The notes under the pieces were generated by a model. The model was not told the DNA's origin, did no database searches, and saw only the letters and a list, made by a program, of their open reading frames with translations. From Siminovitchia fordii DSM 16014 = CIP 108821 (GTDB lineage: Bacteria; Bacillota; Bacilli; Bacillales; Bacillaceae_C): a DNA stretch of 64,000 nucleotides. Numbering within the stretch: the stretch's first letter is position 1; every line of letters begins with the position of its first letter. Below are positions 10,103 to 35,262 of the stretch, piece by piece. Both the position numbers and the translations under genes were made by a program. The DNA lies in contig NZ_KB894686.1 in NCBI RefSeq assembly GCF_000374565.1, positions 186,001 to 250,000 on the forward strand, in the 5' to 3' direction.

Positions 10103-10116
10103 AAGGGGGATAAATC

Positions 10117-14786: not shown

Positions 14787-15224
14787 ATGTCAGATGGACG
14801 TTACGTATTTAGAAACTGTATACCGGATGGCTCCATTGATGTAGTAAATGTCCAACCCGGAGAAATTATGAATCGTGAATGGAGTTTCCGCGTCAACATG
14901 CCCCCGGAGTTACAAGAAAAGCTTGATGCGGGTGAATTTGATCCACGGAACATTCTGCAAGGAAAAGACGGTGAGTTGTATGACGGAGACGGTAATTTCT
15001 TAGCTGAAGTGAATACGTTCCAAGCCCAAATGAACTTTAATACGACCGATTACCAACCTGCCGCCGGAATGGTAGTCTGGGGGATTACTACAGGATACAC
15101 ATTCACCCTTACTTTTACTGAAACGGTTGTAAGGGACAGATTGCTCGTAAAAATCTTGAACGCATTTAAGAAAGGGCAGAAAATGCCACAACTAAACTTC
15201 ACTGGCGTTTTGCGCGCTAGTTAA
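14787..15224 (+). CDS. xkdM: Tail tube protein (XkdM/YqbM-like)
   Basis: Inner tail tube subunit, 145 aa, that stacks inside the sheath. The sequence (GRYVFRNCIPDGSIDVV ... EWSFRVNMPPELQEKLDAGEFDPRNI ... VRDRLLVKILNAFKKGQKMPQLNFTGVLRAS) fits the XkdM family in length and pattern. It has a strong AAAGGAGG ribosome site. Order sheath, tube, chaperone is conserved. Confidence 0.88.
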   Translation: MSDGRYVFRNCIPDGSIDVVNVQPGEIMNREWSFRVNMPPELQEKLDAGEFDPRNILQGKDGELYDGDGNFLAEVNTFQAQMNFNTTDYQPAAGMVVWGITTGYTFTLTFTETVVRDRLLVKILNAFKKGQKMPQLNFTGVLRAS

Positions 15225-15238
15225 CGGGAGGATAAAAC

Positions 15239-15730
15239 ATGACTGAAGAAAAGATGAATCAAGAGGAATTACTGGCCGTTGAAGATGACGTACTTCGCGG
15301 CCTTCTTGGTGCTTTCGAAGACCAACAAGATGATACAGTGGCGATTGAAATAGCTAGGAATGGAAAAGTTTATTTCTCATTTGATATTCGAGGTCTAACC
15401 GAAAAGCAGTATCAAGACCTGCAGGATCAGGCCACAAAGTTCAAGAAAGCAAAAAACCTTGGTGGCGTTAAGATTGCAGAAGAAACGGATATCACTCGAT
15501 TTCGTTCGCTGCTGATTTATCATGCAACTGCTGAAGAAGACCGGAAGAAGCTTTGGAATAACAAAGAAGCTTGGAGAGCACTGAATGTGGTAAATGGACC
15601 TGATCTCATTGATAAAGTGTTAAAGGCGGGAGAGAAAAAGGCCATTATCGACAAAATCGATGAAATTAGCGGCTATAACGACGAAACGGACGAAATCATA
15701 AAAAACTCATCGAAGCAGGAGGAAAGCTAA
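15239..15730 (+). CDS. xkdN: Tail assembly chaperone, short form (XkdN/YqbN-like)
   Basis: Chaperone (163 aa) that coats the tape measure protein during tail assembly, equivalent to the G protein of lambda or gpE of P2. Acidic N-terminus, then FDIRGLTEKQYQDLQDQATKF and RFRSLLIYHATAEEDRKK, typical of XkdN. The coding end contains a slippery A AAA AAC at 15700-15706, and a second frame continues in the -1 phase to 15894. About 156 codons are shared by both products before the shift. Confidence 0.85.
   Translation: MTEEKMNQEELLAVEDDVLRGLLGAFEDQQDDTVAIEIARNGKVYFSFDIRGLTEKQYQDLQDQATKFKKAKNLGGVKIAEETDITRFRSLLIYHATAEEDRKKLWNNKEAWRALNVVNGPDLIDKVLKAGEKKAIIDKIDEISGYNDETDEIIKNSSKQEES
15700..15706 (+). 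promoter_or_regulatory. -1 programmed frameshift signal A AAA AAC
   Basis: In the zero frame the codons are ATA AAA AAC, giving the canonical X XXY YYZ heptamer. Slippage leads into an open -1 frame that runs to the stop at 15892-15894, one base before the tape measure start. Confidence 0.8.
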
Positions 15731-15894
15731 CCCTCCTGCATGAGATTTTTCAACGGACGGGTAAATTGCCCGACGAAATCATGAGCAAACCGAAAAGCAT
15801 ACAAAAATTTGCATTTCTATCAATGCAAGAGCAACTAAAGCGAGAACAAGAAGAGCGTCAAGCAATAAAACGACAAACGAAGGGAGGGAAGTAG
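15706..15894 (+). CDS. Tail assembly chaperone, -1 frameshift extension
   Basis: This 62-codon frame (LIEAGGKLTLLHEIFQR ... LPDEIMSKP ... LKREQEERQAIKRQ) has no good start of its own and is entered by slippage in the upstream gene, giving a fusion of about 218 residues. It corresponds to the GT or E+E' proteins of other long-tailed phages, in which the extended chaperone recruits the tape measure. The frame is too short for ordinary gene calling and would be missed. Its coding character (charged helix, family-like LHEIFQRTGKLPDEIM) is clear. Confidence 0.8.
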   Translation, partial: LIEAGGKLTLLHEIFQRTGKLPDEIMSKPKSIQKFAFLSMQEQLKREQEERQAIKRQTKGGK

Positions 15895-18800: not shown

Positions 18801-19506
18801 CCATAATCTGTCCACTTTGACAACCTATTTAGGTGAAGCATCTGGATGGGTGGTTGGCGCATTTCAGCCAATTCCTGAAAATGCAGGTCCCATCCATCAC
18901 AACATGAGCACACTTGCCAGTTATCTGGGCCAAGCTTCTGGCTGGGTAGCGTCAATCAACGGGATCCAAGGTGGAGCAGCAGCAGTTAAATCGGCTCTTA
19001 ATAACTTGGCATCCAGAATAAACAACGTTCCAACGCCAAGAATATCTGTACCGAGCTTGCCAAGTTTCAATCCATTGAGGTTGTTCAGAAGGTATGCAAC
19101 TGGTACTGATTTCCATCCCGGTGGCCCTGCAATCGTTGGTGACGGTGGCGGCTCTGAGTTGATAAGATACCCAGACGGCAAAATGGCATTATCTCCTGCT
19201 ACAGACACACTTGTCAATTTACCGCGCGGAACAAAAGTCATGCCTCATCATAAGACAGCAAAATTGATGGATGTCCCGGCATATGCTGATGGCATAGGAT
19301 TTGATGATGTTAATCCTGCTCAATCAGGACAAGTTGTTGGCGGGAACAACACATCAATAGAAATTGGTGATACACACGTCACCGTAGTTGTCCAAGGTGG
19401 AGAACAAGATGATCCTGATGATTTAGCGACAAGGATTGCGGATAAAGTAGCGGGTATCATTGCTGACAAGGTTGAACGAATCGCACCAAATATGCCAGCA
19501 ACATAA
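15895..19506 (+). CDS. xkdO: Tail tape measure protein (XkdO/YqbO-like)
   Basis: Tape measure, 1203 aa, which fixes tail length and passes into the cell with the DNA. GTG start after AGGGAGGG, one base beyond the chaperone stop. The N-terminal 100 residues are helical and charged. The region LRAVDRASHIIRSASSMASSFAG and LKIKMDRQSVTTAFEVLLGSKQKAD... are typical of the family, followed by a glycine-rich hydrophobic part. A Gly/Ser/Thr/Pro linker with a duplicated GPVIVDQHGR lies around residues 580-660. Seven copies of a 32-residue unit occupy residues about 809-1021. The C-terminus ends in a phage-typical helical tail. Confidence 0.9.
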   Translation: MAKEIYRIEIPIETKDNYSKGLDKAKRDIESLEKSAKRSGKGMSELGNSAQNAAKGVEKIGGSASRSEGQVSRFQSVVQRTRDRLRDLSGRKWELTLRAVDRASHIIRSASSMASSFAGKTYSITLRAVDMVTRPLRGIMSAASSTLGLVGAAGGIGAGVVLPLKIKMDRQSVTTAFEVLLGSKQKADQRITELTEFAGMTPYTRDEIYKSSRILEVFTKGALSTGKGLTMVGDIAAGTQNDFENTALWMGRMYDGMASGRKIGEAAARLQELGAIDGAARQRLEDLAEAPMSIAKKWKLAEKEFQRFDGMMEKMSGNLQNLLLGAKVFFLNNMVARWGDGLSKALTPALKKFREWRSENSEGIKEMGNAFEKYGEKVAGFAIEKGSSAIGFLRKVFFPSKEELNKFADVNKYLPEDLAEKLPKAKEISFSTKVAFVIETANNVFSEWWEEKGRKQITGLSEKIGTEFGEIINRAILGMLGVDSKEGGNSFVSAGFEAGSSFVKGFLDGLDAGDLALQIAKKIGEINLKGATDPFKGNGFGSTAGAFLVDALVLGALSKILSPFKLLTTPIKWIKSMMPGGGKGGSGGGGTVATNTKTTSTDTSKPSQPKGPVIVDQHGRSISTSKQSQSSQPKGPVIVDQHGRPFSPSSSTPKTSPVPKTASSTPSIPKAAAGGKGLFPWLGKVLGPMGTFMTYKSIDTSFGDWLFGHKPGDVKDKGLLSNPFRNPMKQEFHDDYRQGWIYKMLGIDGPGSKKSAVAAELENEERLPPGMKLNTTSNHPSASKYVPDLKAMGFSGTTGPMDAQMQGVIHNIETLKMHLGNASGWVVGAFQPLEGAGAGLSHNISTLSEYLGQASGWVVEGLMPLQEGAASIGHNMSTLSEYLAQASGWVIEGLYPLQEVSANIGHNMSTLSDYLAQASGWIVEGLYPLSEGSANVSHNMNTLSEYLGQASGWVVEGLYPMQEHGAAVNHNLSTLTTYLGEASGWVVGAFQPIPENAGPIHHNMSTLASYLGQASGWVASINGIQGGAAAVKSALNNLASRINNVPTPRISVPSLPSFNPLRLFRRYATGTDFHPGGPAIVGDGGGSELIRYPDGKMALSPATDTLVNLPRGTKVMPHHKTAKLMDVPAYADGIGFDDVNPAQSGQVVGGNNTSIEIGDTHVTVVVQGGEQDDPDDLATRIADKVAGIIADKVERIAPNMPAT
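18319..18957 (+). repeat. Seven in-frame 96-bp repeats in the tape measure gene
   Basis: Seven tandem units of about 96 bp encode the motif HNxSTLxxYLxxASGWVVxxxxPL followed by a variable link. The period is a whole number of codons, the amino acids are better conserved than the bases, and the units sit in one open frame, so this is protein repeat expansion and not a CRISPR array. Confidence 0.9.
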
Positions 19507-19520
19507 AAGAAGGTGATGCA

Positions 19521-20144
19521 ATGAGATTCTCTTTAATAGACCCTTCGAATAAAAAAACATTGATATTCCCGGTTACTCCTGAGGGACTGGATGTATCAAT
19601 GGGGGCAAAAACGATTCACTATTCCCATGTAAAGATTGGGGATAGTGAAATCCCCCGAGGGTCCAATCCAATTACTCTATCATTTAAGGGTATACTGCCA
19701 AGTAGTTTAATCCACGTACCGAAAAAAGAGAGTAAGACAAGTGCAAATAGCCTTATCAAGCAGATCAAGTCATGGCAAAAAGCAGACCGAAAAAAGTTGA
19801 AGCTTATTATTACCGGGACCCCTTGGAATATTGATGTTTTTATCGAGGAATTTAGCCCAAGTTACAACGGCCCTACAATCACATATACCATTACTTTAAA
19901 AGAGTATAGAAGCATGGTAGTGCGCCAGACAAAACAAAAGGTGAAAAAGCGTCCTGCTAGTAAGCCTAAACCCCGAGTATATACAGTCAAAAAGGGAGAT
20001 AACCTTTGGAACATTTCTAAGCGATACACTGGTAAAGGTATACGCTGGAAGGAAATGTGGGCAATCAATAAATCAAAGAGTAGAAGTAAGAATCCTCATT
20101 TAATCTATCCGGGTGAAAAATTCACCTTGCCAAGCGGGTGGTAA
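19521..20144 (+). CDS. xkdP: LysM-domain tail protein (XkdP-like)
   Basis: A 207-aa tail component with a C-terminal LysM peptidoglycan-binding domain (YTVKKGDNLWNISKRYTG ... NPHLIYPGEKFTLPSGW). The N-terminal part (LIFPVTPEGLDVSMG) is that of the XkdP family. It likely lies at the tail tip and contacts the cell wall. It is followed after three bases by the hub gene. Confidence 0.88.
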   Translation: MRFSLIDPSNKKTLIFPVTPEGLDVSMGAKTIHYSHVKIGDSEIPRGSNPITLSFKGILPSSLIHVPKKESKTSANSLIKQIKSWQKADRKKLKLIITGTPWNIDVFIEEFSPSYNGPTITYTITLKEYRSMVVRQTKQKVKKRPASKPKPRVYTVKKGDNLWNISKRYTGKGIRWKEMWAINKSKSRSKNPHLIYPGEKFTLPSGW

Positions 20145-20147
20145 TAT

Positions 20148-21158
20148 ATGGATCTAGCAAAAGTTGAATACAGGATCAGAGTAAAAACCCCAAACGGCAA
20201 TATATTTACACTTGACCAAGCACTCACTGATTCTTGCAATCTGGAAGAAAACGACGGGGAGGTTGCTGCTAGGCTGTCTTTTACAGTGAAAAACGAAAAA
20301 GTTGGAAATGCTTGGCTTCACAAACAGTTGTATGTTGGGAACTTTGTCTATGTGCATGCCAAAGCAGGTGGTGCGTGGCAAGAGGTTTTTCGTGGTCGGA
20401 TTTACGATTGGATTACTTCTGCAGCTAAAATGAATGTGACGATTATCGCTTTTGACATGAATTATCGTTATCAAGTGTCTGAGGTAAACATCTACCGCAG
20501 GAAGAATGAGACTGGAGCCAGTTTAGCGAAGCGTTTAATAGCAAGGTGGCGGAATCGAGTAATTAAAAAGCTAGACGGCCCTCACAAAAAGCTTCCTGCC
20601 AAGGCATATGATAATAAGTTAACAGTAACTGAAATCATTCAAGACACCATAACCGAAAGCAAGAAGAAAGGCGATGATGATTATGTGATCCGTTGTATCG
20701 AAGGTGAAATAGCTGTCATTAGAGCTGGTACAAATACTACGGTCTATATTTTAAGTGAAAAAGACTATCTTGAGGAACTCGAGGATCACCACAGTATTAG
20801 GAAACTTGTGACACGTGTCCGAATCTATCGGACCAACGATAAAGATAAAAATGCCAAAGCTAAGTTGACTGAAACCCTTGATGGAAAAACTGAATACGGC
20901 GTCCTGCAAAGGCTAGTTTATACGGATGGAAAGAACCTTTCTGAAGCAAGAAAAGAAGCCAAGCAGATATTAAAAGATGAGGGCAAGGTTGAGAAGACTC
21001 GTGAATTAAACCATCCTGATGTTCCGTTCATTAAAAAAGGGGACCTTGTAATGGTGCATGGCGGAACCGTTGGAAGTGCTAAAAATCCGGCAAAGTTAAT
21101 CGTCAAAAGTATCAATCACGACATCAAAAACCTTTCAATGAAGATTGTGTTTAAGTAG
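20148..21158 (+). CDS. xkdQ: Baseplate hub protein (XkdQ-like)
   Basis: A 336-aa protein in the place of XkdQ, related to late control gene D proteins that form the hub of contractile tails. The sequence has an N-terminal tail-tube-like beta region (LEENDGEVAARLSFTVKN ... GRIYDWITSA), a helical insert and a C-terminal end DVPFIKKGDLVMVHGG ... KSINHDIKNLSMKIVF. Soluble. It belongs to the continuous tail operon. Confidence 0.83.
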   Translation: MDLAKVEYRIRVKTPNGNIFTLDQALTDSCNLEENDGEVAARLSFTVKNEKVGNAWLHKQLYVGNFVYVHAKAGGAWQEVFRGRIYDWITSAAKMNVTIIAFDMNYRYQVSEVNIYRRKNETGASLAKRLIARWRNRVIKKLDGPHKKLPAKAYDNKLTVTEIIQDTITESKKKGDDDYVIRCIEGEIAVIRAGTNTTVYILSEKDYLEELEDHHSIRKLVTRVRIYRTNDKDKNAKAKLTETLDGKTEYGVLQRLVYTDGKNLSEARKEAKQILKDEGKVEKTRELNHPDVPFIKKGDLVMVHGGTVGSAKNPAKLIVKSINHDIKNLSMKIVFK

Positions 21159-21166
21159 GTGATTTA

Positions 21167-21424
21167 ATGGCCCATGAAAATGAAGGAGTCGTAAAGCTAG
21201 TTAAAGCGATGCGTTCACAGTCTCAAAAAGTTTTCAGTGTGAACAGTCAAAATAATATGCTTGGGACAATGACCGGCAGCGGCATTTATATAGACTCAAT
21301 CGAAGATGAAATCCCTCAGGGGGATTTTTTAGTTTTGCAGACTGGACAACCGATCACAACAGGAGATCGTGTTGTTTGCATACCATGTGGTGACTATTTC
21401 GTTGTTTTAGGAAAGGTGGAATAG
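21167..21424 (+). CDS. xkdR: XkdR-like baseplate protein (85 aa)
   Basis: A short beta-rich protein ending GDRVVCIPCGDYFVVLGKVE, with the pattern of XkdR, normally between hub and gp25-like genes. Its reading frame starts at ATG after GTAGGTGATTTA. Function in the baseplate is by gene order. Confidence 0.72.
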   Translation: MAHENEGVVKLVKAMRSQSQKVFSVNSQNNMLGTMTGSGIYIDSIEDEIPQGDFLVLQTGQPITTGDRVVCIPCGDYFVVLGKVE

Positions 21425-21425
21425 G

Positions 21426-21905
21426 ATGGCTGATGAATTTGCAGGGTTTGATACGACTGGAATAGACATCGAGGATGATGTAGAAGATCTTGAAATTGAT
21501 ACAGTTGCCCCTAAGTATGACCCTGAACAAGCTTGTCTTGCTGTTAATGCAATAGGGAAAGTTGAAATCGGAACTGAGAGAGATGCTTACCATTTTTGGG
21601 TGACAAAATGTCTATTAACAGAACGGTATAAGTACCTTGGGTATAGCACGGATTTTGGAGTGGAGATTGAAGACATCATGCGATCAGACTATCCGAGGGA
21701 CATTGCCGAAAGCGAGATGCAACGAACGATTACCGAAGCATTGTCCATCGATTCCCGAACTTTATCGGTTGATAATTTTGAGTTTGATTGGAGCGGTGAT
21801 GGGGTTGTTATCACCTTTGAAATTGAATCGATATTTGATACCGAAATTTATCAGCTAGCGAAAGGCGGTGAAGACGTTGGCGGAGTTGCCATTAGTGCTG
21901 CCTGA
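21426..21905 (+). CDS. xkdS: gp25-like baseplate protein (XkdS-like)
   Basis: A 159-aa wedge protein of the gp25/XkdS family. The acidic N-terminus is followed by FWVTKCLLTERYKYLGYSTDFGVEIEDIM and an end typical of gp25-like proteins (ITEALSIDSRTLSVDNFEFDWSGDGVVITFEIE). It starts one base after XkdR and overlaps the start of XkdT. Confidence 0.82.
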   Translation: MADEFAGFDTTGIDIEDDVEDLEIDTVAPKYDPEQACLAVNAIGKVEIGTERDAYHFWVTKCLLTERYKYLGYSTDFGVEIEDIMRSDYPRDIAESEMQRTITEALSIDSRTLSVDNFEFDWSGDGVVITFEIESIFDTEIYQLAKGGEDVGGVAISAA

Positions 21906-22986
21906 ATTTTTGAATGAAAGTGAAGAGGAAATACACGAAAGAATGTTAAAGCAGGCTCCTTCGAATTTTGATGTATCGGAGGGGTCTTTATTTTGGGATA
22001 TTACTAAACCAACGGCAATGGAAAAGGCAAAGATTCTCGAATTTACCCTACCGTTGTTGATCATGCATATGCTTCCTCAATTTGCTGAGGGAATATTTTT
22101 GGATTATCACGGAGAACGCGAGGGAATATCAAGACGGGCAGCGACCTACTCAACAGGCACAATTGAGGTTACCGGCGTAAGTGGGACATTTATTCCGGCG
22201 GGCACTACATTAACCACAGATGAAGTAGACGGTGTATCCATTGAATATAGAACGATAGCGGATGCGACGATTGATGAATCAGGTGTTGTTAAAATCCAAA
22301 TCGAAGCACTTGAATCCGGCACAAGAGGGAACGTTCCTTCAAACTCCATTAAAAATTTGCTCGAGCCAGTCTCCGGTGTGCATTCCATTACAAATGTCGA
22401 AAGCACTATTGGCGGGTATGACGAAGAGAATGACGAAGAGTTTAGAGAGCGGATATTACAGACAAGCCGTACTAGATCCTTTACAGGTACGAAAGAAGAT
22501 TATATTCGATGGGCCAAAGAAATTCCTGGTGTAGGAGAAGTCCTTGTTGTACCGGAGTGGGATGGTCCTGGAACTGTCAAAGTATTGATTGCGAGTAGCT
22601 CTGGTTCGGTTGCTGCGCCTGAATTGATTAAACAGGTACAGACCCATATTGCACCCGATGGTAGAGACGGTGGAGGATTGGCTCCGATTGGGGCACTGGT
22701 AACCGTAACAGGGATAAACGGTAAATCTATCAATCTCTCGTTTGCAATAACGTTAGCAGAGGGCTACACAACAGAAAACGTAAGAAAAAGCATCGAATCG
22801 TCATTATCAGGTTATTTCGGGGAACTAGAGCAAGGCGGACTTGTCCGTTACATGAAAATTGGTGCCATCATTATGACGACTCCAGGAGTAGTCGATTACG
22901 ATAACCTGCTTGTTAATGGCGGATCCGCCAATATCCAACTTGCTCCTGATGAGGTCGCTGTCATCGGCGAGGTGCTGATCGCATGA
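21877..22986 (+). CDS. xkdT: Baseplate J-like protein (XkdT-like)
   Basis: Baseplate wedge protein, about 369 aa, of the gpJ/XkdT family. Signature region: EGSLFWDITKPTAMEKAKILEFTLP, then HGEREGISRRAA and VTGVSGTFIPAGT, later GYDEENDEEFRERIL and GVGEVLVVPEWDGPGTV. I favour TTG 21877 with AAAGGCGGTG as ribosome site; GTG 21868 is possible. It overlaps the previous gene by about 29 bases and the next by four, as in PBSX. Confidence 0.88.
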   Translation: MAELPLVLPEFLNESEEEIHERMLKQAPSNFDVSEGSLFWDITKPTAMEKAKILEFTLPLLIMHMLPQFAEGIFLDYHGEREGISRRAATYSTGTIEVTGVSGTFIPAGTTLTTDEVDGVSIEYRTIADATIDESGVVKIQIEALESGTRGNVPSNSIKNLLEPVSGVHSITNVESTIGGYDEENDEEFRERILQTSRTRSFTGTKEDYIRWAKEIPGVGEVLVVPEWDGPGTVKVLIASSSGSVAAPELIKQVQTHIAPDGRDGGGLAPIGALVTVTGINGKSINLSFAITLAEGYTTENVRKSIESSLSGYFGELEQGGLVRYMKIGAIIMTTPGVVDYDNLLVNGGSANIQLAPDEVAVIGEVLIA

Positions 22987-23582
22987 ATTTAAAAGACAAA
23001 ATCATTACTTCTCCCAAAGCAATTGAAATGATGAACTATATCTTACCTTTTTATGATAATGATGAGTATTTGCTCCACGCGTTCCAAGCAATAGGTAAGG
23101 AGTTCGATAGTCTTTTTGAAATGATAGATTCTTTTGATACACAGCCTTACCCGCAACGTGCTACTTGGTCATTGCCTTATTGGGAGCAGCTTTTTGGATT
23201 AATTGCCGGTGCAGGAGAGTCCATTGAGGAACGAAGACGAAGAGTTATTGCTTTCCTTGGTTCTGGGCAACCCGTAAACCGAAAAAGGGTTGAGAACATT
23301 TTAACGAGTGCTGCCGGTGTCAAAGTGGACATCTTTGAAAATATTTCCCCCTATACTTTACGGGTAATATTGAACAACTATGATAAGGCTGACTTTATCC
23401 ATATGATGAAGGTGCTCGAGGATGTTAAACCTGCTCATTTATCCTATACAATTTCCTCGAGAACAGTTGAGAAAATGAAGTTTAAAGAAAAAGTTTATGT
23501 CAATTTACGTCGTTATCATACTGTGAGGGAATTTCGGGTAGGTAACCCAGCGATGAGAGAGCAAAATGAGGTGGCACTATGA
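22983..23582 (+). CDS. xkdU: Baseplate/tail protein I-like (XkdU-like)
   Basis: 199-aa protein of the XkdU/YmfQ family. The conserved motif SLPYWEQLFGL, a proline-tyrosine region and GQPVNRKRVENILTSAAG follow the expected order. It connects baseplate and fibres in PBSX-type phages. It overlaps its neighbours by four bases on both sides. Confidence 0.82.
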   Translation: MNLKDKIITSPKAIEMMNYILPFYDNDEYLLHAFQAIGKEFDSLFEMIDSFDTQPYPQRATWSLPYWEQLFGLIAGAGESIEERRRRVIAFLGSGQPVNRKRVENILTSAAGVKVDIFENISPYTLRVILNNYDKADFIHMMKVLEDVKPAHLSYTISSRTVEKMKFKEKVYVNLRRYHTVREFRVGNPAMREQNEVAL

Positions 23583-23854
23583 GTTTATCAGATTACTATT
23601 TGAAAAGAGCAGTAACGGATTTGGAAGGTAGAGTTAGCAAAGTGCTGCTAAACAATGAGGAAGTGCCAATTATAAGCATTACCAATAAGGGGCGGCAATT
23701 AATCGTGAATACTGACAGGGTTGATAACATCCGTAGGATTAACTCAGTCAAACTCTTAGACGAGTTGAATAATGTAATACTCGAACGGAGTCCTAACAGG
23801 AATACAGAGGGAAGTCGCTCCTTAGAATTCCGTTTTGAAATTGAGGTGGAATAG
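23579..23854 (+). CDS. Hypothetical tail-fibre-associated protein (91 aa)
   Basis: Small protein between the XkdU and fibre genes, with an ATGA overlap to the gene before. It reads LEGRVSKVLLNNEEVPIISITNKGRQLIVNTDRVDNI, a beta-rich pattern without a recognised family. No signal or membrane segment. Possibly a fibre adaptor. Confidence 0.6.
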   Translation: MSLSDYYLKRAVTDLEGRVSKVLLNNEEVPIISITNKGRQLIVNTDRVDNIRRINSVKLLDELNNVILERSPNRNTEGSRSLEFRFEIEVE

Positions 23855-23855
23855 A

Positions 23856-25868
23856 ATGGCCTTTGATGCAAAAACAAATTGGAAATATGATGATCCTGTC
23901 ATGGAAGATGATTTTAACCGGTGGGAAAAAGGAATAAAAGATGCTCATAACTTAGTCGATGCAATTGGTACGGATCTGACCACTTTTAAGAAACGTCGAG
24001 ACAACCCTCATGCGGTTACAAAAGCTCAGGTGGGATTGGGTAATGTAGATAATGTCAAACAGGCAAGCAAGGATGAGTTCGATACTCATGACACCGATAA
24101 TATCAGGCATGTCACAGCAACGGAGCGAACGAAATGGAATGCTGCAGAAGAAAACGCATTAGATTGGGTAAAATCTTTTGGGATTGGGACAGACAGAGCA
24201 ATTTATTTGAGAGATGATGATCTTAATGTTGTTAGAGAGGGTGGCTTATATTACGTCGGTGCTAATACAGTCAACAAGCCAGTAACAGACAACGGATACT
24301 TATTAGTATTACCATATACATCAACATACACCGCCCAAATCTATTTAACCAACGGTAAAGGGAATATGTATACCAGGGTCAGTACTAACGTGGGATCAAC
24401 TTGGGAAGCTTGGAAAACTCTGGAGACAACAGCTGGTGCTCAAGCGAAGGTTAATGCTCATGCTAATTTAAAGAATAATCCTCATGAGGTGACAAGTGAG
24501 CAGGTTAGCCTTACATCTTATAGACCTGCTACAGATAGTGGTGACTTGTACCCAATCGGTTTTACTATGTTTTTCATAGGTGCAGATGATACCGGGTATC
24601 CAACTACTCACGGTATAGTTGTAAACATGAAATACAACAGTACAAGGTTTACTCAATGGTATTTCAGTCACGGTGGAGGAGGACATGCAACAGTCGGTAA
24701 TGCACAATTTAGGCACTGGTACACTGGAGTAGGTTGGTCTCAGTGGTATAGGGTGGAGACTACGGAAGGAGCACAGGATAAGGCTGATAAAGCTTTAATG
24801 GATGCAAAAACTTATGCAGACGGAAAATCCTCTTTGTTTACGTCAGACACAAGAGATGTGAATGATCCTCCTAGTAAATATTCTAGGCAATTATTCTTTG
24901 AGTTCAAAAGATTAACTGCTATAGGGCTCTCAGCTGCAGGAACTTACTGTACAGTTATAACTGACGGTCGGTGGACAGGGTCTTCCGGGGGACGTAAAAA
25001 TCAAATTGCCTTAACTGACAATGGTAAAATGTTTATGAGACTAGGAAGTGCAGACGAATCCTCTTGGGGATCCTGGGTAGAGATGGAAACAACTGCAGGA
25101 GCCCAAACAAAGGCGAATAAAGCTTTGTCTGATGCACAGGCCTATTCAATGAATCAAGTGGCTGTTGGTTCTACAGCAGACCCCAACACGACACAGGAAG
25201 CCTACATCCTGACAAACCACGCCAACTCACCGGGAGGCGGTATCTACTGGCACATCCATACGTTCTTCTACTCTTCGAAAACGGGGAACAGGTCACAAAC
25301 AGCAGTTTCATATAGTGGAAGCACTCCCCGCATGATGATTAGGCATATGTATGGTGGCACATGGTCTCCATGGGAAGAATTATCTAAAGAAGGGCATAAA
25401 CACGTGTGGGCCGACATTACGGACGTAGGGAACGCATCTACATCTACGAGAGGTATTGTCCAACTATCGACAGCCACAAACAGCACATCCACTACTTTGG
25501 CGGCCACACCTAGTGCTGTTAAGTCGGCATACGACTTAGCAGCAGGAAGAGAAACCCTTTCAGGAGCTCAAGCAAAAGCAAATGCAGCTGAAGCAAACGC
25601 AAAGTCTTATATTAACAGTAAAATTCAGTCAGGAATGGGTACTCAAAAAGTTCCTCCTAATACGGTAGGTACTGGTAAAATAGTCTTTCCAAAAGCCTTT
25701 GCAAAAACTCCGAATGTAGTAGTGTCATTGGTTTCCGGAAGACCCGATACACGCTCAATTACATTATGGGACAGTGATTTAAATACTACTGGGTGTACCG
25801 TATATCTTTGGAACGGTAGTAATTCGGAACTGGATTTTAGATACTACTGGGTAGCTCATGAACAATAG
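23856..25868 (+). CDS. Tail fibre protein with pyocin-knob-like repeats and H-type lectin end
   Basis: Receptor-binding fibre, 670 aa. ATG 23856 gives the family start MAFDAKTNWKYDDPVMEDDFNRW; an upstream in-frame frame is inside the previous gene. Three knob-like modules occur (GLYYVGANTVN..., GDLYPIGFTMFF..., and another with WSPWEELSKEG), each joined by ETTAGAQ-type linkers. The last 65 residues (VFPKAFAKTPNVVVSLV ... FRYYWVAHEQ) look like an H-type lectin domain that would bind a surface sugar. It probably sets host range. Confidence 0.87.
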   Translation: MAFDAKTNWKYDDPVMEDDFNRWEKGIKDAHNLVDAIGTDLTTFKKRRDNPHAVTKAQVGLGNVDNVKQASKDEFDTHDTDNIRHVTATERTKWNAAEENALDWVKSFGIGTDRAIYLRDDDLNVVREGGLYYVGANTVNKPVTDNGYLLVLPYTSTYTAQIYLTNGKGNMYTRVSTNVGSTWEAWKTLETTAGAQAKVNAHANLKNNPHEVTSEQVSLTSYRPATDSGDLYPIGFTMFFIGADDTGYPTTHGIVVNMKYNSTRFTQWYFSHGGGGHATVGNAQFRHWYTGVGWSQWYRVETTEGAQDKADKALMDAKTYADGKSSLFTSDTRDVNDPPSKYSRQLFFEFKRLTAIGLSAAGTYCTVITDGRWTGSSGGRKNQIALTDNGKMFMRLGSADESSWGSWVEMETTAGAQTKANKALSDAQAYSMNQVAVGSTADPNTTQEAYILTNHANSPGGGIYWHIHTFFYSSKTGNRSQTAVSYSGSTPRMMIRHMYGGTWSPWEELSKEGHKHVWADITDVGNASTSTRGIVQLSTATNSTSTTLAATPSAVKSAYDLAAGRETLSGAQAKANAAEANAKSYINSKIQSGMGTQKVPPNTVGTGKIVFPKAFAKTPNVVVSLVSGRPDTRSITLWDSDLNTTGCTVYLWNGSNSELDFRYYWVAHEQ

Positions 25869-26512: not shown

Positions 26513-26544
26513 GCTTTTTTATTTTGCAGAAAAGGAGAGAGGGT

Positions 26545-26937
26545 ATGGAAACTATATTTAAATCAGTTGTCGCTGTCATCGGGGCGATCATTACATTCTT
26601 ATTGGGGGGGTGGTCGCCTTTGTTACAGGTGCTAGTTATTTTTATTGTCATGGATTATGTATTGGGATTTTTGGTTGCAGCAACACATGGGGAATTAAGT
26701 AGTTCAATCGGATTCAAAGGGATTGCCAAAAAGGTAATCATTCTGTCATTGGTAGCAGTAGCGTATGCAATTGATACGATCATGGGAGATGGCACATTTA
26801 TAAGGGACGCGGTCATCTTCTTTTATTTGGCGAATGAACTGTTGAGTATTTTGGAGACGGTGGGCAAAACAAACTTGCCAGTACCGGATGTGCTTAAAAA
26901 AGCAGTCGAAAAATTAAGCGATAAGAGTGACGCATAA
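26545..26937 (+). CDS. Phage holin (holin_4 / toxin-secretion type)
   Basis: A 130-aa membrane protein that would form pores in the cytoplasmic membrane to release the amidase. Hydrophobic stretches occur at about residues 8-22, 28-45 (VLVIFIVMDYVLGFLVAA) and 62-80 and again near FLYLANELLSILE. The pattern fits the phage_holin_4 family. I chose ATG 26545 after AAAGGAGAG; an upstream TTG at 26524 lies before the ribosome site. The stop is inside a terminator hairpin. Confidence 0.82.
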   Translation: METIFKSVVAVIGAIITFLLGGWSPLLQVLVIFIVMDYVLGFLVAATHGELSSSIGFKGIAKKVIILSLVAVAYAIDTIMGDGTFIRDAVIFFYLANELLSILETVGKTNLPVPDVLKKAVEKLSDKSDA

Positions 26938-26952
26938 GCGTTGCTCTTTTTT
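26923..26952 (+). terminator. Terminator overlapping the end of the holin gene
   Basis: AAGAGTGACGC, ATAA loop, GCGTTGCTCTT and then a TTTTTT run. It precedes ATATTGAAAAGGAGGAATT, the amidase leader. Confidence 0.65.
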
Positions 26953-26972
26953 ATATTGAAAAGGAGGAATTA

Positions 26973-27893
26973 ATGATGTCTGTTAAAATCAAACAACAAT
27001 TAGTATCCCAAAATGTAATTAAGAAGCGCTCATACGGTTATGGAAATCCCTGTCGATATATCACAATTCACGAAACAGCTAACGAAAATACTGGAGCCGG
27101 TGCTCAAACACACGCTAATTTACAATCTAACCTAAACCCGAGACAGGCAAGCTGGCAATATCAAGTTGACGATAAAGGTGTAATTCAGTCGTTTCCCGAT
27201 ACAGTTATGTGCTGGGCAGGTGGCGACGGTAATGGTCCTGGTAACAGGCAATCCATCCACATTGAGCTTTGCGTGAATAATGACAGCAGCTTTAAAAAGA
27301 CAGTGCAAAATGCAGCTGCTTTGGTAAAACATTTGATGGCAAAGCACAGAATCCCGATCAGCAACGTTGTCCAGCATAACAGATGGAGTGGAAAAGATTG
27401 TCCACATTATTTACGTAATGGAGAAAAAGGAATCAATTGGTTTAATTTTATCAGCATGGTAAAAGGAAATGAGGTAAAAGTTGAGGCTCCTAAAACTCAG
27501 GTTGGATCAGCAAAAGAAGGTCCTAAAAAGCCGACTGGCGGTTATACAGGTGATTCCATTGTCGATTACCTTAACAGTATCAAGGTTGATTCAAGTTTTG
27601 CCAATCGTACAAAACTGGCAGCGCAACATGGGATCAGTAATTACAGGGGTACAGCAGCTCAAAACCTTCAATTACTCAATAAATTGAGGGCCAGCGGTAA
27701 AACGTCTGCAACTGCAAAATCCGCGGCTAAAAAAGGCAACAAAGAAACTGACAGCATTGTAGATTATCTCAAATCGATTGACGTTAATTCTTCCTTTGCC
27801 AATCGGAAAAAGCTTGCGGCCAAACATGGTATTAAAAATTATACTGGTACGGCTGCCCAAAATACGCAGCTGCTTAAAAAGTTGCGAGGATAA
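26973..27893 (+). CDS. N-acetylmuramoyl-L-alanine amidase, phage endolysin (CwlA-like)
   Basis: Lytic enzyme, 306 aa, which cleaves the amide bond between muramic acid and L-alanine in peptidoglycan. The Amidase_2 domain (residues about 20-165) includes YITIHETAN with a zinc ligand His, ASWQYQVDDKG and QHNRWSGKDCPHYLR with the other ligands. After a linker, two copies of a roughly 45-residue wall-binding repeat follow: DSIVDYLxSIxVxSSFANRxKLAAxHGIxNYxGTAAQNxQLLxKLR. A strong AAAAGGAGG site lies upstream and a terminator follows. There is no signal peptide, consistent with release through the holin. Confidence 0.92.
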   Translation: MMSVKIKQQLVSQNVIKKRSYGYGNPCRYITIHETANENTGAGAQTHANLQSNLNPRQASWQYQVDDKGVIQSFPDTVMCWAGGDGNGPGNRQSIHIELCVNNDSSFKKTVQNAAALVKHLMAKHRIPISNVVQHNRWSGKDCPHYLRNGEKGINWFNFISMVKGNEVKVEAPKTQVGSAKEGPKKPTGGYTGDSIVDYLNSIKVDSSFANRTKLAAQHGISNYRGTAAQNLQLLNKLRASGKTSATAKSAAKKGNKETDSIVDYLKSIDVNSSFANRKKLAAKHGIKNYTGTAAQNTQLLKKLRG

Positions 27894-30067: not shown

Positions 30068-30520
30068 ATGAAAAAAGTTTATGAGATATTAAGAATTAAA
30101 CAAGTTGCAGTTGAAATGGAATTAGATAATGAAATGGTGATCGGTTCACCCGAAGAAGCAGCCAAAGTAGCTGCATCTTTTATTTGTGATGAAGACCGAG
30201 AAATTTTCCTAGTTTTGTGTCTCAATACTAAAAAGAAAGTCGTTGCGATCCATCGATGTCATGTTGGATCGCTAAATGCTTCAATCGTCCATCCAAGAGA
30301 GGTTTTTAAGGCGGCGATCATGAACAATGCAGCATCAATAATCGCAGCACATCAGCATCCAAGCGGAGATGTAACGCCATCCTTGGAAGATATGAAAGTA
30401 ACCATGCGATTAGATGAAGCAGGCAAAATATTAGGAATCGAGCTGCTCGACCACGTAATAGTTAATGCAACTGGTGAATATAGCAGTATAAAGGATATTA
30501 TTAGTAAAACTGTAATATGA
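30068..30520 (+). CDS. RadC/JAB-like phage protein (150 aa)
   Basis: Isolated C-terminal-type RadC domain of the JAB/MPN fold, lacking the helix-hairpin-helix part of the chromosomal protein. It carries HQHPSGDVTPSLEDM, the metal-binding signature with Gln in place of the usual Asn between the two His. The sequence IVHPREVFKAAIMNNAASIIAAHQHPSG is typical of the mobile-element RadC group (family YkfG/YeeS). The role of these proteins is unclear. The start has AAAGGAGC upstream. Confidence 0.85.
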   Translation: MKKVYEILRIKQVAVEMELDNEMVIGSPEEAAKVAASFICDEDREIFLVLCLNTKKKVVAIHRCHVGSLNASIVHPREVFKAAIMNNAASIIAAHQHPSGDVTPSLEDMKVTMRLDEAGKILGIELLDHVIVNATGEYSSIKDIISKTVI

Positions 30521-30920: not shown

Positions 30921-31499
30921 CTAGTTCATATTTTTTATTTCACACTTCAATTCTTTCAATAGTCGTTTTGCCTCAATTAAATTATGAGACCTAGTATCCT
31001 CGTCCCTAAAAAAAATATATTTTTCACCGGCAATTATAACTGCGTTTAGAAAAGCTATTTCATCGCAGCTTACTCGCGTCTCTTGAGAAACAGGAAGATC
31101 TGATCTTAAATCAAATAAAGCACTATTTCTAAAAACCCTAAATAGAACTAAATCTTTTGGGGAGGATTTAATTTTCTTTATGGACCATTCTAGTGGATTT
31201 GTGAACAGTTGAGTCTCACTGTATTTTCCATCATCCACATACTCGCGTACCATGGTTAATAAAGCAGTCCACATTAAATCTACATCATCCCAATCAATAA
31301 AAGTGGATACATCTACACCATTTATTTGGATGCAAACGACTCCAAATAAATCAATCCCTTTATTTTTTGTTAACATACGATTCAAAGTTTCTTTAGCTCC
31401 GAAATCTTCTATATTTATAAAAAAGTTTTTTGGGTTAGACAATTCTTCAAAATAAGTATCTAGGTCCTTTGTACCGAGATACGTCTGAATATTGATCAT
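30921..31499 (-). CDS. Probable immunity protein of the toxin cassette (192 aa)
   Basis: Cytoplasmic protein with no signal peptide, 13 bases after the toxin gene on the same strand, in the usual place for an immunity gene. The sequence (FEELSNPKNFFINIEDFGAK, FIDWDDVDLMWTALLTMV, TNPLEWSIKKIKS) is acidic and has no family I recognise. The gene ends in a good terminator. The immunity role is inferred from context. Confidence 0.65.
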   Translation of the reverse strand: MINIQTYLGTKDLDTYFEELSNPKNFFINIEDFGAKETLNRMLTKNKGIDLFGVVCIQINGVDVSTFIDWDDVDLMWTALLTMVREYVDDGKYSETQLFTNPLEWSIKKIKSSPKDLVLFRVFRNSALFDLRSDLPVSQETRVSCDEIAFLNAVIIAGEKYIFFRDEDTRSHNLIEAKRLLKELKCEIKNMN

Positions 31500-31512
31500 T
31501 TAATCCACAACC

Positions 31513-32268
31513 TTATTTAAGAGGATAGAATGTAGTGACTCGGTAATTTTTAACCACAAGTCTGTATTTCTGACCATCTATTTTGACATTAATTGTACCA
31601 TAGCCATTCTTTATTTGAGATTTATTTTTATTCAAAATTTGAATAATTTGAGCTCTAATTTTACCACTAGAGATATTTGGATTAAATAACGTTTTGTCAA
31701 TAGCCCCTGTCCAATATTTAGGATGATGCATATGTAAAATATGATTCATACTACTTCGTTGTAATACTACTGTTTTATTTTTTCCGAGGTTCACTTTTGC
31801 CGCTTTAAAGTTTTTCGTGTGATTGACAGCTTTACTTTTAGGTTGTTTTTTGAAAATTTTAGAACCAAATTTTACTACATGTTTTCCGCCGGACATGACA
31901 ACTCGAGCAATTAGACCCCAAACGTACGGTTGAAATTCGGGCTCCTTGAAACTTGGATCATCTTCATTAATGATAATGAAGTCATATTCTGATTCGTAAT
32001 CTTCTCCATCTGCTAGGTCTATGTATTCATATTCCTGTTCTTCGAGATCATCGTCTTCAAATTCCACAAATTCATCATTATTATACTCTACATCAATTTC
32101 TTCCCATTCTACATTGCTCCAGTCAAAGTCTTCTCCGTGAATAGCGTCATCGATTAGTTGCTCATCATCATTATACATTTCTTTAGCCAATACTATATTG
32201 CTACCAACTGAACTGAAAAATAATAAAAATGCTAGAAAACCACTTATTAAAACAGTAAATTTTTTCAT
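31513..32268 (-). CDS. Secreted toxin candidate (251 aa)
   Basis: The N-terminus is a clear signal peptide (MKKFTVLISGFLAFLLFF..., likely cut after Ala28). A very acidic region follows (residues about 32-110, many D/E), then a semi-hydrophobic segment WGLIARVVMSGGKHVVKFG near 117-135 typical of pre-toxin parts. The C-terminal 80 residues begin LQRSSMNHILHMHHPKYW (H176, H179, H181, H182) and end YRLVVKNYRVTTFYPL, the layout of small nuclease-like polymorphic toxin domains (BECR-like or type 35). Some similar Bacillus proteins are called SAR2788-type putative toxins. The activity is inferred. Confidence 0.65.
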   Translation of the reverse strand: MKKFTVLISGFLAFLLFFSSVGSNIVLAKEMYNDDEQLIDDAIHGEDFDWSNVEWEEIDVEYNNDEFVEFEDDDLEEQEYEYIDLADGEDYESEYDFIIINEDDPSFKEPEFQPYVWGLIARVVMSGGKHVVKFGSKIFKKQPKSKAVNHTKNFKAAKVNLGKNKTVVLQRSSMNHILHMHHPKYWTGAIDKTLFNPNISSGKIRAQIIQILNKNKSQIKNGYGTINVKIDGQKYRLVVKNYRVTTFYPLK

Positions 32269-32554: not shown

Positions 32555-32600
32555 TTGAATAGCGAACAAATGTTCTGTTATAATAGTAAACAATTGTTCG
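32555..32600 (+). promoter_or_regulatory. LexA-boxed promoter for the 32,611 operon
   Basis: TTGAAT (32,555-32,560) and TATAAT (32,579-32,584) are 18 bases apart. Between them lies CGAACAAATGTTCT at 32,563-32,576, which matches the Bacillus SOS box CGAACRNRYGTTYC at the core. A second, weaker box (CGAACAATTGTTTA on the other strand) lies at 32,587-32,600. Repression by LexA and DNA-damage induction are inferred. Confidence 0.75.
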
Positions 32601-32610
32601 GGGTGATGAT

Positions 32611-32829
32611 ATGAAAAGCTTGTTAATGCGTGCAGTAGAGTCCAAGCAAAGTCTTGAATTAATTTACATAAACAGGGATAACCAATTATCTCAGCGCATC
32701 ATAAAAGTAATAGCTGTTACTGATTCAGCAGTCAAAGCCTACTGTTACCAAAAACGACAATTTCGCACTTTTAACCTGAATTACATATTGTCGGTTGACT
32801 CTGTAAGGCAAAGGAGAAAAGGAGCATAA
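32611..32829 (+). CDS. Small WYL-like protein (72 aa)
   Basis: Small beta-rich basic protein (MKSLLMRAVESKQSLELIYINR ... FNLNYILSVDSVRQRRKG) resembling an isolated WYL-type domain. Such genes are often paired with yolD in Bacillus. It is preceded by CGGGGTGAT and by the LexA-boxed promoter, and its stop overlaps the start of the yolD reading frame (TAATG). SOS-induced expression is expected. Confidence 0.7.
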   Translation: MKSLLMRAVESKQSLELIYINRDNQLSQRIIKVIAVTDSAVKAYCYQKRQFRTFNLNYILSVDSVRQRRKGA

Positions 32830-33174
32830 TGAAGCAAAATAAGCTTACTCAAGGAAGTAACATGCGATGGGAATCAAGCAGAATGACATTGCCGGAACAT
32901 GTAGAAGAAATTTTATTGTGGAGAAATGAACGAGACAAGGTTCAGAAGCCACAACTGGACGCAACTAGAAGAAATAAATGATATTCTGTACATTGCAATT
33001 GAATATAATAAGCCTGTCATCTTTACCTTATGGAAAGAAGGGGAGTTCCAGAAAATTACCGGTAATCTTCATTTTATTGATGAAATCAATAAGCGGGTTC
33101 ATGTAGTGGATATGAAAGAACAAGTACATAAATTAAAATTTGATGCAATTATAAAGGTGAAATATGCTGAATGA
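32829..33174 (+). pseudogene. yolD: yolD-like gene, frameshifted
   Basis: The first frame (MKQNKLTQGSNMRWESSRMT..., LPEHVEE, KVQKPQLDA) is the standard YolD start. Reading fails near 32,968, and the rest of YolD (TQLEEINDILYIAIEYNKPV ... KFDAIIKVKYAE) continues in the next frame to 33,174. A loss of two bases (or gain of one) around GACGCAACTAGAA explains it. YolD proteins accompany UvrX-type error-prone polymerases, and no uvrX is in this window. A sequencing error is possible. Confidence 0.8.
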
Positions 33175-33202
33175 AACTCTTCCTAAACTGGAAGGGTTTT
33201 TT
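33175..33202 (+). terminator. Terminator after the yolD remnant
   Basis: AACTCTTCC and GGAAGGGTT pair (9 bp with one G-T), six-base loop, then TTTTTT. It separates the SOS unit from the recombinase. Confidence 0.75.
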
Positions 33203-33219
33203 AATATGGACAAACTGTA

Positions 33220-33252
33220 GGTGCATATCCTTCATTAAGGAGGGGATGCACC
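33220..33252 (+). promoter_or_regulatory. Hairpin that covers a ribosome site upstream of the recombinase
   Basis: GGTGCAT and ATGCACC (33,220-33,226 and 33,246-33,252) pair, and TCCTT/AAGGA extend the stem around a CATT loop. The 3' side contains AAGGAGGGG, so the ribosome site of the short leader frame at 33,254 is folded away. It may control translation of the leader and of spoIVCA downstream. Confidence 0.55.
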
Positions 33253-33253
33253 C

Positions 33254-33421
33254 ATGCATATCAGTATTGTAACCCAAAATCCTAATGACAAAACGAAAAA
33301 AGCTTGCTATGCTTATTTATACAAGATTATCAAGGAGAGAAAGCTCTATGAAAGCTATTTACGTGCGCGTAAGCACAGACGAGCAAGCGGAAAAAGGATA
33401 CAGCATCGACAACCAGATTGA
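33254..33421 (+). CDS. Candidate leader peptide overlapping the recombinase start (55 aa)
   Basis: ATG 33254 stands ten bases after AAGGAGG. The first 35 codons (MHISIVTQNPNDKTKKACYA...) look like a real basic peptide; the last 20 overlap the recombinase gene in another frame and read like a shadow. It ends at 33,421. A basic peptide beside a large serine recombinase could be a leader or, less likely, a directionality factor. Not recognised as a family. Confidence 0.45.
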   Translation: MHISIVTQNPNDKTKKACYAYLYKIIKERKLYESYLRARKHRRASGKRIQHRQPD

Positions 33422-34847
33422 TCTATGTAGAGAAAAAGCTGGCACGGATGAATTCCTTAAGTATGTAGATGATGGATATTCAGGTGAGTTTCTTGATCGG
33501 CCGGCCTTGTCAAAGTTACGGGATGATTTAAAAAACGGATTAATTGATGAGGTTATTGTTTATGATCCTGATAGACTTTCAAGAAAACTCATGAATCAAT
33601 TAATTATATCCGAGGAAATTGAAAAGCGAGCAAACCTCATATTTGTCAATCATGATTATCAAAAGACACCAGAGGGGATGCTCTTTTACCAAATGCGTGG
33701 AGCAATCGCTGAGTTTGAGAAAGCGAAAATCAATGAGCGGATGAGTGGCGGCAGAAAGAGAAAAGCACTTGATGGGAAAGTTGTAAAAAACCCAAATATG
33801 TATGGCTATGATTATGATAAAGAAAACTCGCAATTGGTGATCAACGAAAAAGAAGCTGAAATTGTACGATTGATTTTTGATCTGTTTACAAAACCTAACA
33901 ACAATATTCAAGGAATTAACGGAATCGCACTCTATTTGACAAATCAGAACATCCCTACAAAAAAGGGAAAGAGTGTATGGCATCGTCAGGTAGTTAGACA
34001 AATATTAATGAATGAAGCATATACAGGTAGGTTTTATCATAATCGATGGAATACAGAAGGGATGCTTGGGAATAAATACAGGCCGAAAGACGAAAGAAAG
34101 CCGATGACAGAAAGGCCCAGGGAGGAATGGATTGAAATCTCTTGCCCCGCCATTATAGATGATGATGTTTTTGAACACGCCCAAAGGCTATTAGCGGAAT
34201 CTCGCCGGAGATGGGCTAAGAAAAGCAATAACCAATACTTATTAAGTGGTTTATTGCGTTGCGGGCACTGCGGAAATACAATGACCGGTAGGCGGCAAAA
34301 AAATTGGGGCAATTACGTCCTGGAGTATTCAGACATTAAAAATACGGCTGGTGCAAAAAACAAAGGTTGCGGAATGAGAGTAAAGGCCGAAACCCTAGAA
34401 AAAGAAGTTTGGGAGCAAATCAAGTCTTATATTCATGATCCGGCTGAACTCGAAAAGGCCGCTAATGAGCCAAATGAGGATAATAATTTTGAACAAATGG
34501 AAATAGAACGTTTGGAAAATAAAATAAACAGCGCTAAAGAAGGCAGGAAACGGTTGCTGTCTCTTTTAGCGAAAGGAATGGACATATCTGACGAGGAAAT
34601 CAGGGAACAGCTTGCAGACCTAAAAGAACAAGAAAAACAAGCAGAAAGAAAGCTAGCCGAACTGATATCAAAGAAAAAAGAATCACAATCCAGCGAGTAC
34701 AGCAAACGTTTATTTTCAGAAGTTGCAGACTATTTATTGAGCATAGACGATACGGAACTTACATTTGAAGATAAGCAGACGATCATTCGGCAAATAGTGA
34801 AAGAAATAATTATATATAAGGAAAGTATTGATATTCACGTCTTTTGA
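33348..34847 (+). CDS. spoIVCA: Site-specific serine recombinase, SpoIVCA-like
   Basis: Large serine recombinase, 499 aa, the same length as B. subtilis SpoIVCA. It excises the element from sigK in the mother cell. ATG 33348 follows AAGGAGAG at good spacing and gives the family start [14 protein letters not shown], with catalytic Ser9 in YVRVS. The resolvase domain is followed by the recombinase domain ([18 protein letters not shown]), a zinc ribbon ([13 protein letters not shown] ... KGCG) and a long coiled coil. The pattern [21 protein letters not shown] and QLLLSGL-like regions match SpoIVCA. Its stop lies about 25 bases before the sigK remnant. Confidence 0.93.
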
Positions 34848-34867
34848 TTGCTACACTACTGACTTTA

Positions 34868-34880
34868 GGATTGAGATTCT
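34868..34880. other. Right attachment junction within sigK
   Basis: The sigK reading frame becomes recognisable at about GAG-ATT-CTC-ATG. The bases just left (AGGATTGAG) do not encode the expected RCIENE of sigma-K, so the crossover is near 34,870-34,874. ATTGA here differs by one base from the AATGA core known for B. subtilis skin. Confidence 0.7.
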
Positions 34881-35262
34881 CATGCATTTAAGGGCTCTCA
34901 AAAAGACACGGAAGGATGTTTCACTTCATGATCCCATTGGCCAGGATAAGGAAGGCAACGAAATTTCCTTGATCGATGTATTGAAATCTGATGCGGAAGA
35001 TATTTTTGATACGATTCAATTGAACATGGAGTTGGAAAAGATCAAGGAATATATAGACGTATTGGATGACAGGGAAAAAGAAGTGATCATCGGCAGATTC
35101 GGGCTGAATCTTGAAAAGGAACGGACTCAGCGGGAAATAGCCAAAGAACTCGGGATATCAAGAAGTTATGTTTCGCGGATTGAAAAAAGGGCCTTGATGA
35201 AAATGTTCCACGAATTTTACAGAGCGGAAAAAGACAAGATGAAAAATCTAAAGGACGGTTAA
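34871..35262 (+). CDS. sigK: RNA polymerase sigma-K factor, C-terminal half (spoIIIC part)
   Basis: C-terminal part of the late mother-cell sigma factor. The sequence [30 protein letters not shown]... then [25 protein letters not shown] and [35 protein letters not shown] covers the end of region 2, region 3 and the region 4 helix-turn-helix. No start codon with a ribosome site fits the beginning, because the N-terminal half (spoIVCB) lies beyond the left edge of the phage. Excision would restore a full sigK. In-frame phage-derived codons extend up to 34,828. Confidence 0.93.

Follow-up and report, generated by a model that had tools for sequence, protein, structure and literature searches.

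In Bacillus subtilis, sigK is split by an intervening element termed skin, the recombinase of which is encoded by spoIVCA. Expression of spoIVCA has been reported to be sigma-E-dependent and almost completely SpoIIID-dependent (PMC517825; PMC5025042), and the sigma-E promoter is described as lying more than 200 bp before the spoIVCA start (PMC6957869). The latter paper also describes the skin Skr protein, the product of a 64-aa ORF that runs at its 3' end 101 nt into spoIVCA, in a different frame, and proposes that recombination units are interchangeable (PMC6957869). The skin elements of B. subtilis, Clostridioides difficile and Clostridium tetani are reported to be without particle formation, and the same text describes MMB025, an infectious contractile-tailed Alicyclobacillus phage that is 99.99% identical to a sigK prophage, citing as similar the Clostridium perfringens phage phiS63, an inducible phage described as a functional sigK intervening element (PMC13141910). 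Phages that integrate in sigK and are infectious have thus been published, and the element described here, a compact and complete-looking phage, joins the few sigK-integrated phages so far reported. Among the matches listed in a search of the open-licence literature (titles and abstract openings), none concerned this phage, none described a LexA box accompanied by a SpoIIID box in the region before skr, and none described a sigK gene in three pieces.

The interrupted sigK gene

The DNA analysed is a stretch of 64,000 nucleotides of Siminovitchia fordii (hereafter the window), the start of which corresponds to C2:186001; positions without a contig name are window positions. A sequence-only reading had found the C-terminal half of sigma-K here without an N-terminal half, and had advised looking to the left of the window for the missing half (spoIVCB). 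That half was indeed recovered there, at C2:168269-168628, with NCBIfam SigK (TIGR02846) positions 2-118 matched at C2:168278-168625 (E 3e-57). In the profile search the C-terminal half occupies window positions 34861-35262 (TIGR02846 positions 112-227), the 3' part of the gene being annotated at 34873-35262 (+). The two halves are on the same contig (C2) and the same strand, with the N-terminal half 52.3 kb upstream of the C-terminal half. The SigK family search covered the whole source genome (a 4.5 Mb draft in 45 contigs, 99.6% complete), and no intact sigK above the SigK cut-off was found anywhere in it. Neither of the two outcomes that the sequence-only reading had named as fatal to it, an intact sigK elsewhere or the lack of a left half, is therefore seen in this draft, and sigK is split in two with both halves present, as in a skin-type interruption. 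A 268.9-bit SigK-family match at C1:388927, whose counterpart adjoins intact sigK in every one of five congeners, is read as sigE; B. subtilis, used as a control with its sigK split by skin, likewise has a SigK match and none above the cut-off.

SigK was above the cut-off in all five of the other species of the genus that were examined, which places the insertion in one of six species when the source genome is included. Identity to the SigK proteins of these congeners is 93-98% over the N-terminal half and 96-98% over the C-terminal half, and in all five the sigK DNA is continuous across the split point. The insertion looks recent, because these five species carry intact sigK, and they make a comparison of the pre- and post-integration states possible. 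Within the GTDB family, SigK is above the cut-off in 31 of 34 genomes; the source genome and a second genome, G007, have a split gene, and G027 has a partial match (positions 60-227). At E <= 1e-100 the recombinase is present in two of the 34, exactly the two in which sigK is split.

The attachment core and the element boundaries

The right attachment core, TGAGATT (34872-34878, +), is repeated at the left junction outside the window (L009:2604-2610; C2:168604), so that a short common core of 7 bp lies inside sigK at both junctions, as is the case for skin-type elements. The codon phase of the core is identical at the two junctions, and TGAGATT is also found in the five intact congener sigK genes. 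The length of the element from core to core is 52,268 bp, and its right two thirds make up window positions 1-34871 (+), as delimited by the cores and by both sigK halves on C2. The position of a recombinase directly before the sigK C-terminal half, as stated in the sequence-only reading, was confirmed; the distance given there as 25 bases was corrected to 24 bases, counted from the recombinase stop to the core at 34872. In 41 of 51 related loci (L111-L161, self included), a sigK half is found no further than about 1.5 kb from the recombinase, this being the C-terminal half in 27, the N-terminal half in 16 and both in 2. The junctions inspected in the relatives fall at the same sigK position, and most have similar phage-side arms, of the TGACNTTA and TAATGTCA types.

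The recombination unit

The SpoIVCA-type large serine recombinase (499 aa; 33348-34847, +) was assigned by its Pfam domains (PF00239, PF07508 and PF13408) and by its relatives, and stands at a junction of the element in the manner of skin-type recombinases. It retains 92 of the 93 positions that are near-invariant among 51 relatives. Its start is overlapped by 74 nt, in another frame, by an ORF of 55 aa (33254-33421, +), and an ORF in the same frame crosses the recombinase start at all 52 loci compared (L110-L161, MMB025 and self included). A Skr profile was built from the first 31 codons, outside the overlap, of the other 51 loci, which avoids similarity forced by the overlapping recombinase; the window ORF was its sole significant match (E 7e-6, with the next at 0.22, among 1810 ORFs). 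By layout and profile match the ORF looks like a Skr-like excision factor, that is, a recombination directionality factor, whose gene extends into the recombinase gene in a different frame as in skin-type units. When phage records were searched by tblastn using the 55-aa ORF, only two matches were returned, both at E 8, and MMB025 was not recovered, so the Skr membership of MMB025 rests on position and frame.

The control region upstream of skr

SpoIIID has the consensus WWRRACARNY. Directly upstream of skr lies a candidate sigma-E promoter, TAATATG-15-CATATCCT (33202-33231, +), which overlaps a SpoIIID-type box, ATGGACAAAC (33206-33215), such that the order across 33206-33231 is ATGGACAAAC, 8 bases and CATATCCT. 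We take ATGGACAAAC to fit the SpoIIID consensus and CATATCCT to resemble a sigma-E -10 element, and a SpoIIID gene is present in the source genome. The tests for this joint motif, and those for terminators and LexA boxes below, were framed after the upstream sequences had been inspected, and concern related loci; read in this light, a SpoIIID box (with at most one mismatch) joined to CATA was found at 31 of the 52 loci, the window's own among them, and in 170 of 10,400 shuffled upstream regions, the shuffles here and in the hairpin test preserving base content only. The spacing is 8 in 28 of the 31 loci, and the remaining 21 of the 52 are without the motif as scored. Taken alone, the motif is weak: the window yields one exact match where 0.25 are expected (at least one in 21 of 100 shuffles), and 6.5% of shuffles score at least as high for sigma-E; the sigma-E consensus scores of individual upstream regions were non-significant for most loci. 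The candidate sigma-E promoter lies about 120 bp before the recombinase start, compared with more than 200 bp in B. subtilis, and because of this difference the motif could be a promoter or binding site other than the counterpart of the B. subtilis spoIVCA promoter.

In the interval between a YolD-like gene and skr there is a terminator-like hairpin (33173-33200, +; -14.3 kcal/mol, z -4.4), the T run of which lies mostly within the stem, and which is absent from the list produced by a terminator scan of the + strand. By our own criteria, hairpin terminators precede skr at 16 of the 52 loci and in 3 of 1,040 shuffles. The YolD-like gene itself (32829-33174, +) is spread over two reading frames, with PF08863 matched on 32926-33171 and the upstream frame at 32829-32978; the two parts match L123 and L124, and the gene looks broken. 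It follows a small WYL-domain gene (32611-32829, +; PF13280 at 22.8 bits, cut-off 21.8), in front of which is a sigma-A-type promoter match, TTGAAT-18-TATAAT (32555-32584, +), of a class found at chance level over the whole region (11 found, 10.1 expected). Within this promoter match, between the hexamers and 690 bases upstream of skr, is an exact LexA-type palindrome, GAACAAATGTTC (32564-32575). Upstream of skr, the exact form GAACN4GTTC is present at 10 of the 52 loci, where 200 simulation runs gave 0.9 on average and 5 at most; some of these ten loci are close relatives, and at one (L118) the box precedes the sigK N-terminal half. Palindromes with up to one mismatch were dropped in favour of the exact form, as the window holds 26 for 22.65 expected, which is at chance level, and L009 holds 3 for 7.05 expected, which is below chance. 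At L123, L132, L134 and L136, genes encoding a LexA DNA-binding domain on its own (PF01726) stand behind LexA boxes, upstream of skr.

The phage genes

The sequence-only reading had credited the element with a complete set of contractile-tail late genes, and the PHROGs assignments agree, naming terminase, portal, neck, sheath, tail, tape measure, baseplate wedge, fibre, holin and endolysin functions. All of the genes located in this paragraph by PHROGs family are on the + strand. A ParB-like/DNA methyltransferase gene (1208-2500; phrog_498, E 4e-158) is followed by those for the terminase small and large subunits (2913-5232; phrog_1889, E 1.5e-95 and phrog_2, E 5e-50), the portal protein (5225-6733; phrog_64, E 7e-48) and a MuF-type head morphogenesis protein with an extra C-terminal part (6738-8246; phrog_1657, E 4e-85, on residues 4-312 of 502). 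Next are the genes for a head decoration protein and a putative major capsid protein (9707-11172; phrog_122, E 1e-23 and phrog_3116, E 6e-167), the role of the latter being assigned from gene position, as phrog_3116 is of unknown function. The tail region comprises the contractile sheath (13381-14772; phrog_279, E 3e-69), a tube-type tail protein, an XkdN-like protein and the tape measure protein (14787-19506; phrog_365, phrog_389 and phrog_167), and then a LysM protein of endolysin type according to PHROGs, tail proteins, two baseplate wedge proteins and a tail fibre (19521-25868; phrog_380, 400, 120, 6, 521 and 7389). Lysis would be provided by a holin and an amidase/endolysin (26524-27893; phrog_199, E 9e-33 and phrog_5182, E 1e-69). 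A neck protein was also assigned by PHROGs, and the left part of the element encodes a repressor, an antirepressor, a DnaC-type loader and a sigma-like factor (PHROGs), together with an M78 peptidase. Packaging, head, tail and lysis genes are all present, the gene content to be looked for in a temperate phage integrated in sigK, and the late genes that were scanned are open frames, most of which cover the greater part of their PHROGs profiles.

Compared with its nearest relatives in catalogued phages, the terminase large subunit is 65% identical to that of Parageobacillus phage JGon-2020a and 59.5% to that of phiCD27, and the putative capsid is 64.7% identical to that of BalMu-1 and 54.9% to that of phiCD27, BSP7-type phages also being among the nearest; the sheath has merely 22-35% identity to catalogued phages. 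An IMG/VR record of 42 kb (G775) matches 28 of 31 queried element proteins at 100% identity, two of the 28 partially since they cross the ends of query pieces, and represents the same prophage. It is without the holin, the amidase, the recombinase and a sigK half, and may come from the same genome as the source.

Some further observations were made on individual genes. The MuF protein carries about 190 additional C-terminal residues with a weak, below-cut-off RadC/JAB match, and a separate RadC-like gene is found at 30068-30520. Several HNMSTLSEYLGQASGWV-type units are repeated in the translation of the tape measure gene (15895-19506), in which TRF detected no DNA repeat. At 30921-32268, a gene for a secreted-looking protein with weak, below-cut-off EndoU nuclease similarity and an adjoining same-strand gene form a candidate prophage-borne toxin-immunity pair.

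Related elements and the exchange of their parts

Among 397 genomes of the order, 21 carry a relative of the recombinase (E <= 1e-90, self included), and among 398 of the class, 47 do; the two samples overlap. SigK is above the cut-off in 6 of the 64 genomes that have such a relative, against 31 of 34 in the GTDB family, so the recombinase accompanies split sigK, if not strictly. Judged by these matches, the recombination unit is a family across the sampled Bacilli, found mostly with split sigK and on differing phage bodies. The distance between the sigK halves ranges from 5.8 to 57.2 kb in the 22 of 64 genomes that could be sized, and, among elements with known ends, at least those of G000, G068, G261 and G706 contain a Pfam sheath.

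The related loci take several forms. At L129 (G204) the interruption is about 2 kb long and holds little beyond the skr-recombinase unit, and at G403:C7:450083-461801 the sigK halves are on opposite strands, suggesting an inversion. Apparent division of sigK into three pieces was seen at L226, L227, L229 and L231 (G425, G547, G681 and G517), where the C-terminal half left by the recombinase family ends again after ~37 residues (at DKEGNE), and the last piece follows at a distance of about 6-14 kb, with a second serine recombinase, ~27% identical, in between; at L228 and L230 no third piece was found in the 20 kb examined. In G007 the sigK halves are 19 kb apart (G007:C1:47291-66998; L225), with the recombinase in the middle of the element, about 8-10 kb from each half, unlike most other loci. 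For a recombinase of B. chungangensis (61%), an initial appearance of no linkage to sigK was rejected, as G007, apparently the same genome, has it between the halves.

A search of genome contigs with the recombinase gave 80 loci, of which the B. chungangensis one was close; the other 79 were 21-30% identical and mostly from Bacteroidota by title, and were set aside; viral contigs gave two, one close but on a different body (G790/L184) and one at 26%. Related capsids were found at 22 IMG/VR loci, from which 15 records were analysed and 7 short contigs left out. These 15 records, possibly fragments, carry a tyrosine integrase in eight cases, a serine recombinase in one (G787) and neither in six. 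Six of them, together with G790, were compared gene by gene. The closest other capsid (G776, 88%) goes with a tyrosine integrase, and G790, with a recombinase 63% identical, has almost no match to the phage body. In the G311 element the recombinase is 53% identical, and of the other 30 proteins just three have matches there: an amidase, an antirepressor (in part) and, weakly, a methyltransferase. G787 has a related body, a recombinase of the same family and the sigK C-terminal half at the end of the record; it looks like the G068 prophage, since both the Skr ORF and the identities are the same, and hence is no independent case. G068 and G261, both Bacilli, resemble the source genome in having a related body in sigK (capsid 65-66%, sheath 42%, recombinase 54-55%), but they belong to another genus and are divergent throughout, the stretches compared ending before the tail-end genes. 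This distribution fits a shuffling of recombination unit and phage body among elements, and the related bodies with tyrosine integrases, together with the related units on other bodies, support the published idea of interchangeability.

A model for the element and its alternatives

The account of the sequence-only reading, a skin-like, myophage-like prophage interrupting sigK, is upheld by both gene halves, the core, the contractile-tail genes and the skr-recombinase layout. We consider it probable that the element is a temperate phage with contractile-tail genes, recently integrated in sigK, whose skin-type unit excises it in the mother cell and which is inducible as a phage. The phage would integrate in sigK by means of this unit, which comprises the attachment site, the Skr-like factor and the SpoIVCA-type serine recombinase, and in the lysogen sigK is split after the codons for ...IENEI, such that no sigma-K could be made. 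In the sporulating mother cell, sigma-E with SpoIIID would most likely activate both skr and the recombinase gene, perhaps at the candidate promoter at 33202-33231; Skr would then direct the recombinase to excision, and recombination of the 7-bp cores would restore sigK, with the forespore retaining the prophage. In growing cells the phage is probably under its own repressor, and a lytic cycle may be possible after DNA damage. The regulation, excision and particle formation that we infer for this element derive from its sequence, the expectation of sporulation-regulated excision being founded on homology and on the recurring upstream motif.

The unit may have been kept for sporulation in an element that has been domesticated and makes no particles, its phage genes merely still being present. 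This appears unlikely to us, though it is the likeliest of the alternatives: the skins of B. subtilis, C. difficile and C. tetani are reported without particles (PMC13141910), small forms are common among the relatives (as the 22 of 64 sized genomes, at 5.8-57.2 kb, and L129, at about 2 kb, illustrate), the YolD gene looks broken, and the hairpin separates upstream transcription from skr. However, the scanned late genes are open and mostly cover the greater part of their profiles, capsid and terminase have relatives in catalogued phages, and the intact sigK of all five congeners implies little time for domestication. The presence of the insertion in one of the six species examined would also suit a plain inactivation of sigK, with a late sporulation block and without developmental excision; this we regard as improbable, given the conservation of recombinase, Skr-like ORF, core and upstream motif and the retention of the same arrangement in many other genomes. 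That the interruption is an artefact of assembly or strain mixture, as a draft in 45 contigs might lead one to suspect, is scarcely credible, as both junctions lie within one 326-kb contig with clean att-type joints, and the same prophage (28 of 31 proteins at 100%) is in IMG/VR, even if that record possibly stems from the same genome.

A more speculative extension of the temperate-phage model, which we put forward tentatively and would not expect to hold, is that one excision unit serves two programmes and moves as a cassette between phage bodies, with sigK as its preferred docking site. Transcription of an SOS operon (the LexA-box promoter, the WYL gene and the YolD remnant) would leak past the terminator and reach skr and the recombinase gene to give lytic excision, and the sigma-E/SpoIIID promoter directly before skr would fire the same unit in the mother cell; for temperate phages of spore-forming bacteria, sigK would be a favoured place to dock. 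Such dual control fits the exact LexA palindromes at 10 of 52 loci, four of them with stand-alone LexA DNA-binding domain genes. The element is a case in which the possible use of one excision switch for lysis as well as for development can be tested.

Comparison with known systems

By published description, the B. subtilis skin shares with the present element the interruption of sigK, the SpoIVCA-type recombinase and the skr-type ORF that overlaps it out of frame, and by analogy sigma-E/SpoIIID control would be expected here too. The two differ in that the present element has a complete-looking set of phage modules, that its recombinase lies at the sigK 3' half and reads toward it, and that the published skin promoter is further upstream than the candidate found here (PMC6957869). 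Prophage SPbeta in spsM of B. subtilis is comparable as a prophage in a mother-cell gene with an integrase/excision-factor unit responsive to stress and sporulation, but its target gene is another one and its integrase SprA is reported to be 26% identical to SpoIVCA. The phage phiS63 is similar, by description only, as a phage that is a sigK intervening element. MMB025 is likewise a contractile-tailed phage, matches a prophage in sigK and is reported to be infectious; its SpoIVCA-type integrase is 50.6% identical over the full length, and an overlapping ORF stands at the Skr position. MMB025 is 105 kb in size, compared with 52 kb here, and in the 13.5-kb part of it that was compared only the recombinase and, weakly, the methyltransferase match among 31 element proteins.
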